DNA from: Archangium lansingense
GTDB taxonomy: Bacteria; Myxococcota; Myxococcia; Myxococcales; Myxococcaceae
Direction of reading: 5' to 3'
DNA length: 64,000 nucleotides
Assembly (NCBI RefSeq): GCF_026626635.1
Contig: NZ_JAPNKA010000001.1
Location: 13,642,001-13,706,000, forward strand
Of this stretch, positions 26,059 to 32,682 are shown piece after piece. The notes beneath the pieces were generated by a model, which saw only the letters and a program-made list of their open reading frames with translations, was not told the DNA's origin and searched no databases. The translations under genes were made by a program, and so were the position numbers. How positions within the stretch are numbered: the stretch's first letter is position 1; each line of letters opens with the position of its first letter.

Positions 26059-26239
26059 CGAGCCCCAGGTTGGCTCCCTGCGCAGGTCCTCGGATACCGT
26101 GCGGTTCTGAGAGCCACGAGTCACCGGTCCGCCCCACTCCGGTCACAGAGATGTCACAGGGGGAGCTGTTACCTCTGGCTGTCATTGCTTCAGAGGAAAG
26201 CGAAACCCAAGAAGGGCGAAGGCCCGGAGGAGGGAAGTC

Positions 26240-27136
26240 GTGAATCCCTTGGACTGGAGTGGTGGGGAGTTCCTGGCAGCTTACATTCCCTACGTGGTGG
26301 TGCTGCTGATCGCCGCGAAGGTGTGGCAGTCCACGTTGAACCAGCCCTCGGAGGAGCCGCAGAGCGCCGAGCTGAAGCTGGACCCCTACCAGGTGGCGGC
26401 GCTGCAGCACCGGGAGAGCGCGGTGACGACGGCGGTGGCGTCGCTGGTGCATGACGGGGTGCTGCGCTGGGAGGACGGAGGCGTGCTGAGGGCGGTAGGC
26501 CAGCCGCCCGCGAGCGCGGGGCCCTTCGAGCGCGCCGTGCACGCGGCGCTCTCCTCGCCGGTGGGAGAGGTCGCGACGCTGCACGAGAAGGTGGACAGGG
26601 AGCTGGACGGACTGGAGGAGGGGCTGCGCCGCCGAGGTTTCCTGATGAACCCCGAGGTGGCGGCCCGGTGCAGGCAGTACCCGATGGCGCTCTACTTCGG
26701 AGCGGGGCTGGGCCTGGGTCTGATGAAGCTGATGGTGGGCATCTCACGAGACAGGCCGGTGGGGTTCCTGCTGATGCTGCTCGTCCTCGGCGCGGTGCTC
26801 GGCTTCTGGGTGCTGGGGCGCAAGCCCCGGCGCTCGAGGAGGGGTGACAAGGCGCTGGCGAAGCTCCGGCAGGACAACGAGCCGCTGCGCACGACGGCGA
26901 AGGCCGATGGCGCGTGGGGGACGATGAACAGCGCGAGCGTGGCGATGTCGGTGGCGCTCTTCGGCACGGGACTGCTGGCGGCCGCGGGGATGGCGGACCT
27001 GCGGGCCTACCTGGTGCCACCGGGCAGCGGGGGCGGGAGCGTGGACGGGGGCGGGGGCGGGGGTGACAGCGGAGGAGGCGACGGGGGTGGTGGCTGCGGC
27101 GGAGGCTGCGGCGGTTGTGGCGGGGGCGGCGATTGA
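26240..27136 (+). CDS. TIGR04222-type membrane protein with Gly/Cys-rich C-terminal tail
   Basis: 298 residues, GTG start. Transmembrane segments lie near 10-26 (FLAAYIPYVVVLLIAA), 150-170, 175-195 and 235-250. A soluble winged-helix-like domain (about 50-130, YQVAALQHRESAVTTAVASL) is typical of TIGR04222 proteins. The last ~35 residues are almost only Gly with Asp, Ser and three Cys (Cys286, 290 and 293; spacing C-GGG-C-GG-C) ending at Asp298. Its stop overlaps the TTG start of the DUF692 gene, so both are made together. The tail looks like a substrate for modification by that enzyme or a metal-binding region; this is inference. Confidence 0.85.
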   Translation: MNPLDWSGGEFLAAYIPYVVVLLIAAKVWQSTLNQPSEEPQSAELKLDPYQVAALQHRESAVTTAVASLVHDGVLRWEDGGVLRAVGQPPASAGPFERAVHAALSSPVGEVATLHEKVDRELDGLEEGLRRRGFLMNPEVAARCRQYPMALYFGAGLGLGLMKLMVGISRDRPVGFLLMLLVLGAVLGFWVLGRKPRRSRRGDKALAKLRQDNEPLRTTAKADGAWGTMNSASVAMSVALFGTGLLAAAGMADLRAYLVPPGSGGGSVDGGGGGGDSGGGDGGGGCGGGCGGCGGGGD

Positions 27137-27969
27137 AGCTGCCAGCGGGGGTGGGGCTGGGGTGGAGGCGGCAACTGGCGCACTACCTCGACGAGGCGCA
27201 GGGCGTGGGTTTCGTGGAGGTGTTGGCCGAGCACCTGGACCCCAAGGGCACGCTGCCGGAGCCCCTGAAGCGGTTGAAGGAGCGGGGAGTTCCGGTGGTG
27301 TTGCACGGGGTGTCACTGGGGTTGGGGAGCGCGGAGCCGCCGGAGCGGAAGCGGCTGGACACCCTGGCGCGGCTGGCCGAGCGGCTGGGCGCGGTCTGTG
27401 TGAGCGAGCACCTGGCATTCGTGCGAGCGGGAGGCGTGGAGAGCGGACACCTGCTGCCGCTGCCGCGCACGGAGGAGATGCTGGAGGTGCTGGCGGAGAA
27501 CGTGCGGTTGGCGGAGGCGGCGCTGCCGGTGCCGCTGGCACTGGAGAACGTGGCGAGCCTCTTCGAGTGGCCCGGCGCGGCCCTCTCCGAGGCACAGTGG
27601 TTGACGGGCGTACTGGAGCGCACGGGAGTGGGAGTACTGCTGGACGTGGCCAACCTGTATGCGAACGCGCTCAACCACGGGACGGACGCGGAGGCGGTGC
27701 TGGCGGCAGTGCCTCGCGAGCGGCTGGCGTACGTGCACGTGGCGGGAGGGGTGAAGCGAGGGGGCCTGTACCACGACACGCACGCGCACGCGGTGCCCGA
27801 GGGTCCGCTAGCGCTGCTGGAGACACTCGCGGCGAGGGTGGGGCCGGTGCCAGCGCTGCTCGAGTGGGATGACCACTTCCCACCGTCGGAGGTGTTGGGC
27901 GCGGAGCTGGAGGCGATGAGGGCGGCGTTGGCGCGAGGCGTGGCGCGCTGGGAGGGCGGGGCGCCATGA
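27133..27969 (+). CDS. DUF692 family multinuclear iron-containing enzyme
   Basis: 278 residues of a TIM-barrel family (UPF0276/DUF692) that includes MbnB, TglH, ChrH and BufB, iron enzymes that modify Cys residues of peptides. Candidate metal ligands are seen at H58 (VVLHGVSLG), H93 (VSEHLAF), E138-N139 (ALENV), D171/N174 (LLDVANLYANA), H202 (YVHVAGG), D215/H217 (HDTHAH) and E244. The TTG at 27133 overlaps the preceding stop; TTG 27115 is an alternative. A 4-base ATGA overlap links it to the next gene. Its target is probably the Gly/Cys tail of the upstream membrane protein. Confidence 0.88.
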   Translation: MKLPAGVGLGWRRQLAHYLDEAQGVGFVEVLAEHLDPKGTLPEPLKRLKERGVPVVLHGVSLGLGSAEPPERKRLDTLARLAERLGAVCVSEHLAFVRAGGVESGHLLPLPRTEEMLEVLAENVRLAEAALPVPLALENVASLFEWPGAALSEAQWLTGVLERTGVGVLLDVANLYANALNHGTDAEAVLAAVPRERLAYVHVAGGVKRGGLYHDTHAHAVPEGPLALLETLAARVGPVPALLEWDDHFPPSEVLGAELEAMRAALARGVARWEGGAP

Positions 27970-28457
27970 GCGCGCGAGAGAGATTGGCGAAGGCTCAGGC
28001 GGAATTGGCCCGTGCGCTGGGAATGGGAGAGCCGGTGCCAGCGGGCTTCGATGCGGAGCGGGTGGGGGCGGCGGCCGAGGCGCTGGGGATGAAGCGCCGG
28101 AGGCTGGTGCAGCGGACGTGGCCGGTGTTGGCGGCGGCGTTGGGTGAGGGCTTCGCGGCGCGCTTCGAGCGCTGGGCGCGGGAGAACCCGCTGTTGGGAG
28201 TGGAGCCGAATCCGCTGGCGGATGGACGGCGCTTCGCCGGGAGCCTGCGTGCCTCGGGCGCCTTCCCGGCGGAAGCAGAGGAGGAGTGGCTCGCCTTCGA
28301 GCTGCGCTGGAGGCTGACGGACGAGGGAGGAGTGTCGGCGCGGTGGGGCGTGGTGCTGAAGACAGCTCGGGTGGGCAGGGCGAGGCGGAGGGTGCTGGCA
28401 GTGCGCCTGCCCGGGGGCCGGGTCTTCCGGTGGCGTCTACCGGGCAGGGAGCGCTGA
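27966..28457 (+). CDS. Small DUF692-partner protein (DUF2063-like)
   Basis: 163 residues, soluble. The N-terminal half (RRRLVQRTWPVLAAALGEGF, WARENPLLG, NPLADGRRFAGSLRASGAFP) resembles the helical domain of DUF2063-type partners (MbnC/TglI/BufC roles) that present the peptide to a DUF692 enzyme. The C-terminal half is a basic beta region (ARRRVLAVRLPGGRVFRWRL). It overlaps the DUF692 stop by four bases and ends the cassette. The family match is by pattern, so partner function is inferred mainly from context. Confidence 0.72.
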   Translation: MSARERLAKAQAELARALGMGEPVPAGFDAERVGAAAEALGMKRRRLVQRTWPVLAAALGEGFAARFERWARENPLLGVEPNPLADGRRFAGSLRASGAFPAEAEEEWLAFELRWRLTDEGGVSARWGVVLKTARVGRARRRVLAVRLPGGRVFRWRLPGRER

Positions 28458-29085: not shown

Positions 29086-32000
29086 GTGCGGAACGAGCCC
29101 CTCGCGGCCAACCCAACCCCCCTCGACGCCCGGCCCTACCGGGGCCTGCTCGCCTTCGAGCCGGAGCACCGCCGCTTCTTCTTCGGGCGCGGTGAGCTGG
29201 AGCGCGAGCTGGTGCTGCGCGTGCGCGCGGCGATGGGGGGCTGGGGCTCGCGCTTCCAGGTGGTGGTGGGCGCCTCGGGCAGCGGTAAGTCCTCGCTGGT
29301 GCTGGCCGGGCTGGTGCCTCGGCTGCACGAGGACGCGCGTGAGCCCTGGGACGTCGTCGTGCTGCGCCCCGGCGAGGCTGGCGCACCCCGGATGCTCGAG
29401 GTGGAGGAGGGACCGGGCCGGTTCAGCTCGCTCGGCAGGCTGCGCGCGCTGCTGTCGGGGCTGCATCGCCAGAGCGGGGCACTCACGGCCCAGGGGGCCA
29501 CGGTCGCCGAGGTCCTCTGGGAGGCGCGGCTGCTGCGCGAGGCCCGGCCGGACCGGTGGCTGCTGGTGGTGGTGGATCAGCTCGAGGAGCTCTTCACCCA
29601 GGTGCCCACCGTGGAGGAGCGCGAGGCCCTCATGCGGGCGCTGTGGAGGCTGACGCGGACCGAAGCGCTCCGGGTGCTCGTGGTGGCCACGCTGCGAGTG
29701 GATGCGCTCGGGCGCTGCGAGCACGTGCGGGTGGACCACCCGGGCCCGCAGCTGGAGTCGGTGGTGTACTCGGCGGCGCACCGGCTCTTCGTGGGCCCGC
29801 TGCGGGCCGAGCAGCTCGCGGACGTCATCGAGGGGCCCGCGCGTGTGGTGGGGCTGGAGCTGGAGCCGGGCCTGGTGGAGGCGCTGCGGCGGGACGTGGA
29901 GCAGGAGCCGGGGGCACTCCCGCTCTTGCAGCATGCGTTGGACCAGTTGTGGGAGCGGCGAGCGGGGAGCCGGCTGACGCGGGAAGCATACGAGGAGCTC
30001 GGTGGCGTGGTGGGGGCGATGGCGCGCACGGGGGACCGGCTCTACGAGTCGTTGTCCGAGGCCGAGCGGCACCAGGCTCGCCGGCTGCTGGTGCGGCTGG
30101 TGGACTTGCGCGAGGAGATGAGCCCGCACGCGCGGCGCGAGGGATTGAAGCTGCTGCGCCCAGAGCGGGAGGAGGACGCCGCGGCGTTCGACGCGGTGGT
30201 GGAGAAACTGGTGCGGCACCGGCTGGTGGTGCGGGGCGAGGAGGGGGGACAGCCGCCGGAGCCGTGGCTGCGGCTGGCGCACGAGACGTTGATCCGCCGG
30301 TGGGGCCGGTTGGTGGAGTGGGTGCGGGAGGATCGGAAGCGAGAGCCGCGAGCCAACGAGGGCGAGTCGCGGGAGCGCGAGCGGGCGCGGTATGCGCGGG
30401 ACGTGGCGCGGGTGCTCCAGGCACGGCGGCTGATGGAGTGGGACCTGGCGCTGGCGGTGCTGGTGCTGCGCGAGGTGGCGGAGCCGGAGACGGCGCCGGA
30501 GTGGCACCAGAGCGCCCTCGAGGCGCTGCACCGGGGGGCGATGCAGCCGCTGGTGCTCGCGGGGCACGAGGGACGGGTAGAGCTCGCGGTGTTCAGCGCG
30601 GACGGCGAGCGGGTGCTCACCGGTGCGGAGGATGGGACGGCGCGGGTGTGGAGGGCGGACGGCACGGGAGAGCCGGTGGTGCTCGCGGGCCATGAAGGAG
30701 GCGTGTGGTCCGCGGAGCTGAGCGCGGACGGGCAGCGGGTGCTCACCACGTCGCAGGAGGGGCGGGTGCGGGTGTGGAGGGCGGACGGGAGCGGAGAGCC
30801 GGTGGTGCTCGCGGCGCACGAGGATCGGCTGTGGCCGACGGAGTTCAGCCCGGACGGGCAGCGGGTGCTCATCGTGTCCGAGGACGGCACGGTGCGGGTG
30901 GCCATGGCGGATGGCTCGGGCGAGCCCGTCATGCTCCGGGGCCATGGGAAACGGGTGACGAGCGCGGAGTTCAGCGCGGACGGGCAGTGGGTGCTGACGG
31001 CGTCGGAGGACGGGACGGCGCGGGTGTGGAGGGCAGACGGCGCGGGGAGGCCCGTGGTGCTGCGGGGCCACGGGGACGGGGTGCGGTCGGCGGCCTTCAG
31101 CGCGGATGGGCAGAAGGTGGTGACGGCGTCGGAGGACGGGACGGCGCGAGTGTGGCGAGCGGACGGCACGGGAGCGCCGGTGGTGCTCGCAGGGCACGTG
31201 GGAGCGGTGGCGAGCGCGGAGTTCAACGCGGACGGCGAGTGGGTGCTCACGGCATCAGAGGACTGGACGGCGCGAGTGTGGAGGGCGGACGGCACAGGAG
31301 AGCCCGTGGTGCTCGAGGGCCATGCGGGAGCGGTGGCGAGCGCGGTGTTCAGCTCGGACGGGCAGAGGGTTCTGACGGCGTCGGAGAATGGGACGGCGCG
31401 CGTGTGGCAGGCGGATGGCACGGGAGCGCCCGTGGTGCTGCGAGGCCACGCGGCGGGGGTGCGCTCGGCGGAGTTCAGTCCAGACGGGCAGCGGGTACTC
31501 ACGGCGTCGGAGGACGGGACGGCGCGGGTGTGGAATGGCTTTGGAGAGCCCGTGGTGCTCGCGGGCCACGTAGGAAGGGTGACGCGCGCGGAGTTCAGCG
31601 CAGACGGGCAGCGGGTGCTGACGGCGTCGGAGGACGGGGCGGTACGGGTGTGGAGGGCGGATGGGGCGGGAGAGCCCGTGGTGCTCGCGGGCCCCGAGGG
31701 CGAGGTGGATGCTGGGGCCTTCAGTCCGGACGGCGAGCGGGTGGTCACCGCCTCACGGGCAGGGACGGTGCGGGTGTGGAGGGCGGATGGGATCGGAGAG
31801 CCCGTGGTGCTCCAGGGCTACCTGGCGGTGCTGTGGCCCGCGAAGCTCAGCGCGGACGGGCAGCGGGTGCTCACCCGGTCGCAGGAAGGGGCGGTGCGGG
31901 TGTGGCGAGTGGACGGCACCGGCGAGCCCGTGGTGCTGCGAGGCCATGAAGAAGAGGTGTGGTCCGCGGACTTCAGCGCGGACGGACAGTGGGTGCTCAC

Positions 32001-32682
32001 CCGGTCGCAGGATGGGACGGCGCGGGTGTGGAGGGTGGAGGGAGCGGAGGCGCCCGTGGTGCTCGCGGGCCATTCGGGCGGGGTGAGGTCCGCGGAACTT
32101 GGCACGGACGGACAGCGGGTGGTCACCGTGGCGGAGGACGGGACGGTGCGGGTGTGGAGGACGGATGGCACCGGAGAGCCGCTGGTGCTCGCGGGCCCGG
32201 AGGCGGAGGTGGAGCTCGCGGCGTTCAGCGCAGACGGGCAGCGGGTGCTCACGGCGTCGCGGGATGGGACGGTGCGGGTGTGGCGGGCGGATGGCACTGG
32301 AGAGCCGCTCGCGCTCCGAGGCCATGCAGGACGGGTGGAGCGCGCGGTGTTCAGCGCGGACGGGCAGCGAGTGCTCACGGCCTCGGAGGATGGGACGGCC
32401 CGCGTGTGGCGGGCGGATGGCACCGGGGAGCCCGTGGTGCTCGGTGGTGGGCAGGAAGGAAAGGTTCGGTACTCATTCAGCGCGGACGGCGAGCGGGTGC
32501 TCTGCGTGTCGGAGGACGGGACGCTCCGCCTCTGGACGGTGGGAACCGCCCGGCTGCAGGCCCTGCTGCGCGAGGCGGTCACGGGCTGTCTGACGCCGGA
32601 GCAGCGCCAGCGCTACCTGCTCGAGACTCCCGAGGAGGCCCGGGCGGGTTACGAGCAGGACGAACGGGCGCATCGGGGCTAA
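29086..32682 (+). CDS. STAND ATPase (nSTAND1-like) with 16 WD40 repeats
   Basis: 1198 residues from GTG 29086. The N-terminus has the nSTAND1 pattern [19 protein letters not shown] and Walker A [9 protein letters not shown] at 62-70, with Walker B [12 protein letters not shown] near 161-172. A helical winged-helix/arm region runs to about 485. From 487 on there are 16 WD40 repeats (two or more propellers) of 42 residues each, nearly identical to one another ([42 protein letters not shown] pattern, split here by variable positions). Repeats 10 and 14 lack the GH His, and repeat 8 is two residues short. Such proteins sense a ligand on the propeller and oligomerise via the ATPase; signalling or defence roles are known in the class. 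Confidence 0.88.
   Translation: [1198 protein letters not shown]
30547..32550 (+). repeat. 126-bp tandem repeat array (WD40-coding)
   Basis: Sixteen consecutive 126-base units inside the STAND-WD40 gene. Unit starts step by exactly 126 bases (30547, 30673, and so on) apart from unit 8, which is 6 bases shorter; unit 16 starts at 32431. DNA identity between units is high in the second half of each unit. This points to recent duplication or gene conversion rather than ancient divergence. Confidence 0.9.

Follow-up and report, generated by a model that had tools for sequence, protein, structure and literature searches.

A three-gene operon in the window, the 64,000-nucleotide stretch of Archangium lansingense DNA analysed here, encodes a membrane protein of the TIGR04222 (near_uncomplex) family with a Gly-rich, Cys-containing C-terminal tail, an MNIO enzyme, and a partner protein for that enzyme. 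That the three form one functional unit is supported by sequence comparison, because the membrane protein is present in all 30 of the 30 Myxococcota genomes that have this enzyme, because enzyme and partner are joined in single ORFs in Streptomyces, and because the tail terminus CGGC is nearly invariant. What does the unit do? We consider it probable that the MNIO and its partner oxidise one or more of Cys286, Cys290 and Cys293 of the tethered tail, probably to a thiooxazole-type, metal-binding product, and that the tail lies on the cytosolic side of the membrane. The substrate, the chemistry, the metal and the membrane side are all things that we infer, chiefly from sequence.

All features of the operon lie on the forward strand. 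A ribosome-binding site, GGAGGAGGG, read directly at 26226..26234, precedes the GTG start of ORF1 (26240..27136), which encodes the 298-aa TIGR04222 protein, the proposed substrate. ORF2 (27133..27969) encodes the 278-aa MNIO (DUF692, PF05114) enzyme and begins with a TTG that overlaps the stop of ORF1 in a TTGA junction at 27133-27136; ORF3 (27966..28457), encoding the 163-aa partner, begins with an ATG that overlaps the stop of ORF2 in an ATGA junction at 27966-27969. The GC3 values of 0.90, 0.89 and 0.85 for ORF1, ORF2 and ORF3 are as expected of real genes, and so support all three frames. The original prediction of three overlapping genes with these two junctions can be read directly in the sequence, as can its remark that no separate precursor gene lies in the gap: since the genes overlap, there is no gap, and no separate small precursor gene is found in or beside the cassette. 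A search for a terminator or a sigma-70 promoter near the operon found none. The operon is flanked by a gene for a GH15-type enzyme upstream, and downstream by two genes, one DinB-like and on the opposite strand, the other of the nSTAND1-WD40 kind; none of the three shows any sign of belonging to the cassette. The nSTAND1 NTPase (window positions 29086-32682) is large, has a long series of WD40 repeats, and adjoins the cassette with no sign of linkage.

The TIGR04222 protein ends ...GGGGCGGGCGGCGGGGD, with Cys at 286, 290 and 293, exactly the positions first proposed, and Asp298 as its last residue. The Gly-rich tail (residues ~260-298; 27017..27133) is predicted to be disordered, with pLDDT below 50 at residues 265-286, and its composition is kept in relatives. 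Its conserved terminus, CGGGCGGCGGGGD, occupies 27095..27133, with C286 at 27095-27097, C290 at 27107-27109, C293 at 27116-27118 and D298 at 27131-27133. Could such a tail be a low-complexity run without meaning, its place next to the enzyme gene a coincidence? In favour, both the genome and the codons for Gly are GC-rich. Against this, 40 of the 42 TIGR04222 proteins from Myxococcota contain CGGC within their final 14 residues, where shuffled tails give a mean of 1.9 and a maximum of 8. The number and position of these Cys are kept while the remaining tail is free to vary in length and in its Gly, Ser and Asp content, with extra upstream Cys that differ in number, and the similarly composed DUF2207 tails lack Cys. 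The low-complexity reading is scarcely credible, and the conserved CGGC terminus of the Myxococcota tails is, to judge from these sequences, under selection beyond chance. The tail Cys are, moreover, the only strongly conserved Cys in the operon. Actinomycetota tails exceed these in length and often, by far, in Cys content, with CSSSSSC-type repeats, and most of them end in Gly or Ser. The Archangium genome itself has a second TIGR04222 gene (L042:7214-8146, near 6154378 of C1), whose tail ends in (CGG)n without Asp and which has no adjoining MNIO gene; beside it lie a gene for a Ser/Thr kinase, which matches a Cache domain weakly, and a sigma-70-region-2-like gene.

The enzyme is recognized readily. 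ORF2 matches PF05114 with an E-value of 3e-80 over profile positions 1-261 of 263, that is, over the whole TIM barrel, and has all ten candidate iron ligands (H58, E92, H93, E138, D171, N174, H202, D215, H217 and E244), so that the DUF692 enzyme with a full candidate ligand set, as originally read, stands. The ten positions are nearly invariant across 136 sequences, and N174, D215 and H217 align with the site-3 residues N175, D242 and H244 of HvfB, which are essential there (PMC13419390). Homologues of known structure are 3bww, TglH and MbnB. The best of the curated models is BufB (NF050167) at 207 bits, below its equivalog cut-off of 310; HvfB (NF003818) follows with 169 bits against a cut-off of 360, ApyH (NF050151) with 118 against 400, and ChrH and MbnB give 44 and 35 bits, also below their equivalog cut-offs. 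BufB/HvfB is therefore the nearest characterised MNIO family, and ORF2 is, by these profile scores, a bufferin-maturase-like MNIO of its own subtype. Elsewhere in the same genome (L005; C1:6000355), a 549-aa frame encodes a divergent PF05114 protein in which the ten sites read HNDEDHHDHF; with several ligands changed, it is perhaps a non-canonical MNIO.

ORF3 had been called DUF2063-like. By sequence it is not, as it has no match in Pfam or NCBIfam and hence no DUF2063 signature, and no convincing sequence relative was found among solved structures. By fold the description holds. The AlphaFold model (mean pLDDT 94.6) consists of a five-helix domain and a small beta domain. Of 350,542 PDB chains compared with it, rank 1 goes to 3dee, which is NGO1945, the reference MNIO partner, with an E-value of 0.12, and rank 2 to 7dz9_C, which is MbnC in the MbnABC complex, with 0.33; both values are weak, yet it is notable that MNIO partners take the first two places. 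MNIO and partner share one ORF at 37 loci, which are from Streptomyces wherever the origin is named. The NGO1945/MbnC-like fold, the lack of DUF2063, the position of the gene after that of the MNIO and the single ORFs together indicate that ORF3 is, on the strength of its model, a partner of the PME-type 2 kind.

How does this operon compare with characterised MNIO systems? The bufferin/oxazolin systems (BufB/HvfB with BufC/HvfC) likewise combine an MNIO having the same iron ligands with a fold-related partner and a Cys substrate. Their precursors, however, are equipped with Sec signal peptides, and DUF2063 is present in their partner but not in ORF3; here ORF2 falls below the BufB and HvfB cut-offs, and the protein encoded beside them is an integral membrane protein; at 298 aa and with three predicted membrane helices, it does not resemble a bufferin precursor, which is short and has a Sec signal peptide. 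MbnBC, TglHI and ChrHI share the enzyme superfamily, and the ORF3 fold resembles MbnC, but their substrates are small peptides and the similarity in enzyme sequence is low.

The cassette gene set recurs in Myxococcota, Planctomycetota, Dormibacterota and Actinomycetota. A profile of the MNIO subtype identifies 30 of 195 Myxococcota genomes at 444-518 bits, the next best scoring at most 224, and TIGR04222, found in every one of these 30, is present in just 32 of the 195 overall. Fisher's test gives p 3e-33 for the co-occurrence, a value that ignores shared ancestry, since related genomes are not independent. Co-inheritance is better argued from how patchily the pair is distributed within genera: of the 27 genomes of one genus, 15 carry both genes and 12 neither, and none carries one alone. 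The MNIO gene adjoins TIGR04222 in 31 of 40 Cys-tailed Myxococcota copies. The expectation that Cys tails would accompany DUF692-TIGR04222 pairs across genomes is thus borne out in the Myxococcota, by the 30 genomes and the 40 CGGC tails, though some genomes have the tail without the enzyme.

On which side of the membrane does the tail lie? That ORF1 encodes a TIGR04222-type multi-pass membrane protein, as first proposed, is clear from the NCBIfam match (E 4e-49; 167 bits against a cut-off of 43) and from three predicted membrane helices. The AlphaFold model (mean pLDDT 87) places these at residues 8-33, 138-169 (or about 146-169) and 175-192, with a soluble domain between helices 1 and 2, short broken helices at 231-258, and then the disordered tail; no fold relative of the model was found in the PDB. 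Counts of K+R versus D+E over 36 relatives are 0.44 versus 1.36 before helix 1, 3.6 versus 1.7 before helix 2, and 4.9 versus 1.75 after helix 3, which places the N-terminus out and the soluble domain in. The side of the tail then hinges on whether residues 231-250 form a fourth membrane helix. The estimated insertion energy of this segment has a family median of +2.5 with no value below 0, against -0.1, 0.9 and -0.5 for the three helices, on a crude scale with approximate values. In the window protein by itself the margin is narrow, the segment giving 0.9 while helices 1 and 2 give 1.0 and 2.4. Given the positive-inside counts and no convincing fourth helix, we favour, from the model, three helices and a cytosolic tail, clearly though by no means overwhelmingly over the alternative. 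A periplasmic tail was predicted for TIGR04222 proteins by Antoine et al. (2025, PMC12452194); the fold and charges here favour the cytosol instead.

If the tail is cytosolic, it could be modified without translocation. A mechanism can be proposed. The operon would make a membrane-anchored protein with a disordered Gly-rich tail, together with a dedicated oxidative modification pair. By analogy with known MNIOs, in which the substrate thiolate is bound at a diiron site and a partner is needed (PMC13419390), the enzyme-partner complex would be cytosolic; the PME-type 2 partner would dock on the MNIO and present the tail, and the iron cluster would bind a tail thiolate and oxidise at least one of Cys286, Cys290 and Cys293. 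The most likely product would be a thiooxazole-type, metal-binding group as in bufferins, a first guess that follows from the BufB and HvfB models scoring highest among the characterised families. Thiooxazole-modified bufferins chelate copper (Antoine et al. 2025, PMC12452194). The modified protein would stay tethered to the inner membrane and probably bind copper or a similar soft metal, with a putative role as metal store, buffer or sensor. A more specific version of this idea, which we regard as rather unlikely in its full form, is that the cytosol-facing tail is remodelled in place into a permanent metal-binding or sensing element, and that some Streptomyces enzymes have been re-targeted to another substrate, one without Cys. 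RiPP chemistry would then equip an integral membrane protein with a cofactor instead of yielding a released peptide.

The last residue of the tail suggests a different reaction. In the aminopyruvatide pathway, ApyHI acts on a C-terminal Asp of a precursor whose Cys is needed but stays unmodified (PMC10635010). By analogy, might Asp298 be converted to aminopyruvate or hydroxy-Asp, with the Cys serving as iron ligand or recognition element only? ApyHI is also an MNIO with a partner, and its precursor too has a conserved Cys and a C-terminal Asp. In the Myxococcota, 27 of the 31 Cys-tailed copies with an adjoining MNIO end in Asp, as do none of the tails in the two genomes without this enzyme. 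But Ser is the last residue in four Myxococcota copies that adjoin an MNIO, most Actinomycetota tails end in Gly or Ser, and the ApyH score is far below its cut-off and below that of BufB. The ApyHI precursor is, in addition, short, and its pathway has extra tailoring enzymes. A C-terminal Asp as the general target is ruled out, since Asp is not universal in TIGR04222 tails; for the Myxococcota an ApyH-like reaction is a real alternative, if a distinctly improbable one.

Oxidation of the tail Cys, the reading we prefer, is not a new idea. Antoine et al. (2025, PMC12452194) survey more than 3,500 TIGR04222 proteins, report that TIGR04222 accounts for 40% of the Cys proteins without signal peptide that precede MNIO genes, and propose subsets of the family as MNIO substrates, with PME-type 2 partners. 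The tail-as-substrate proposal in the original prediction therefore has no claim to novelty, the same substrate class and partner type having been put forward there. The operon is a clear member of this TIGR04222-MNIO-PME-type 2 class, itself a predicted one: it shares the gene families, the typical order, the multi-pass protein with its Gly/Ser/Cys-rich C-proximal tail and the non-DUF2063 partner of the published clusters, and it has what defines them, C-proximal Cys in a Gly/Ser-rich tail encoded beside an MNIO gene. The available part of the paper makes no mention of the Myxococcota CGGC-(G)n-D/S terminus, the single ORFs, or the Streptomyces cassettes without a Cys tail. Our additions, some of them perhaps already in print, concern how nearly perfectly the genes are inherited together, the CGGC terminus, the occurrence of enzyme and partner in single ORFs, the kinship with DUF2207, the topology of the membrane protein and two classes of exception. 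If tail modification is correct, MNIO chemistry, demonstrated until now on peptides, would extend to integral membrane proteins, and bacteria would gain a genetically encoded, membrane-anchored metal ligand. With just three genes and a short tail that has only three Cys, the present cassette is a compact test case, and the natural exceptions make the substrate question directly testable.

The first class of exceptions is in Streptomyces. At least 10 loci have an enzyme-partner ORF with intact ligands where the only nearby TIGR04222 protein is tail-less and Cys-less, and these are spread over two or more separate sublineages in the enzyme tree. In three genomes with such cassettes, no clear Cys-tailed TIGR04222 protein was found elsewhere, and no Cys-rich replacement substrate was seen in the loci read. 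Cassettes with Cys-less tails, which had been named as a refutation of the tail-as-substrate proposal, thus do exist here. Because the Cys-tailed form is found throughout the rest of the enzyme tree, we read the tail-less cassettes, from their sequences, as loss or re-targeting in derived lineages; they nonetheless imply that the tail is not the sole possible reason for keeping the enzyme, and it may not be the only substrate. At two loci (L073, L080) the tail-less cassette is preceded by a small zinc-ribbon-like gene, and at L068:3263-7049 and similar Streptomyces loci DUF4142 proteins, which have no Cys, flank the MNIO-partner ORF beside a tail-less TIGR04222 gene.

Do the tail-less paralogues mean that an unlinked small precursor is the true substrate, with the TIGR04222 protein serving it as membrane scaffold, exporter or maturation factor? 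In favour, too, is that its domain is homologous to the C-terminal domain of DUF2207 (hhalign profile comparison, 97.9%, E 4e-13). The absence of a precursor gene in and beside the Myxococcota cassette, and the confinement of strongly conserved Cys to the tail, make a scaffold role very improbable. The DUF2207 proteins themselves (PF09972/PF20990), recovered as weak matches, keep a Gly/Ser-rich C-terminal tail; theirs, however, ends in SW or similar without Cys, and they have an extra N-terminal domain and no MNIO nearby.

The second class consists of Cys tails outside MNIO control. No PF05114 gene was found in G056, an assembly 98% complete, or in G412, though both encode Cys tails; G163, also with a Cys tail, has only a bufferin-like PF05114 enzyme. 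Within the Myxococcota, the genomes with CGGC tails but without this MNIO subtype number two. Cys-tailed copies without an adjoining MNIO are also found at L011 and L018; at L018 the partner gene is present after TIGR04222 and the MNIO is missing. At L018:692-2832 and L034:707-2289 (the G056 copy), an overlapping nucleotidyltransferase-like gene (NTP_transf_2) precedes TIGR04222. Second TIGR04222 copies without an adjoining enzyme also occur in genomes that have one, and most of these could be modified in trans. As a few genomes have the tail without this enzyme, a Cys tail may be useful on its own. Might the Cys-Gly tail work unmodified, binding metal directly or forming disulfides, with the MNIO and partner directed at another substrate, encoded elsewhere, and only co-inherited with TIGR04222? 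The Streptomyces loci that have enzyme and partner without a Cys-tailed TIGR04222 protein, the tails without enzyme, and the copies with a nucleotidyltransferase-like gene before them instead of an MNIO after would all fit. The 30 of 30 co-occurrence with overlapping frames in the Myxococcota does not, nor does the lack of any other recurrent Cys-rich gene in the cassettes read, nor do the Cys-free tails of DUF2207 relatives without an adjoining MNIO, and we think an unmodified tail unlikely. The proposal that the tail is the substrate is thus strengthened by co-occurrence, single ORFs and CGGC and weakened by both classes of exception. One further arrangement may be noted: at L043:7151-11305, four tandem TIGR04222 genes, one of them without the tail, are followed by a single MNIO gene and its partner.
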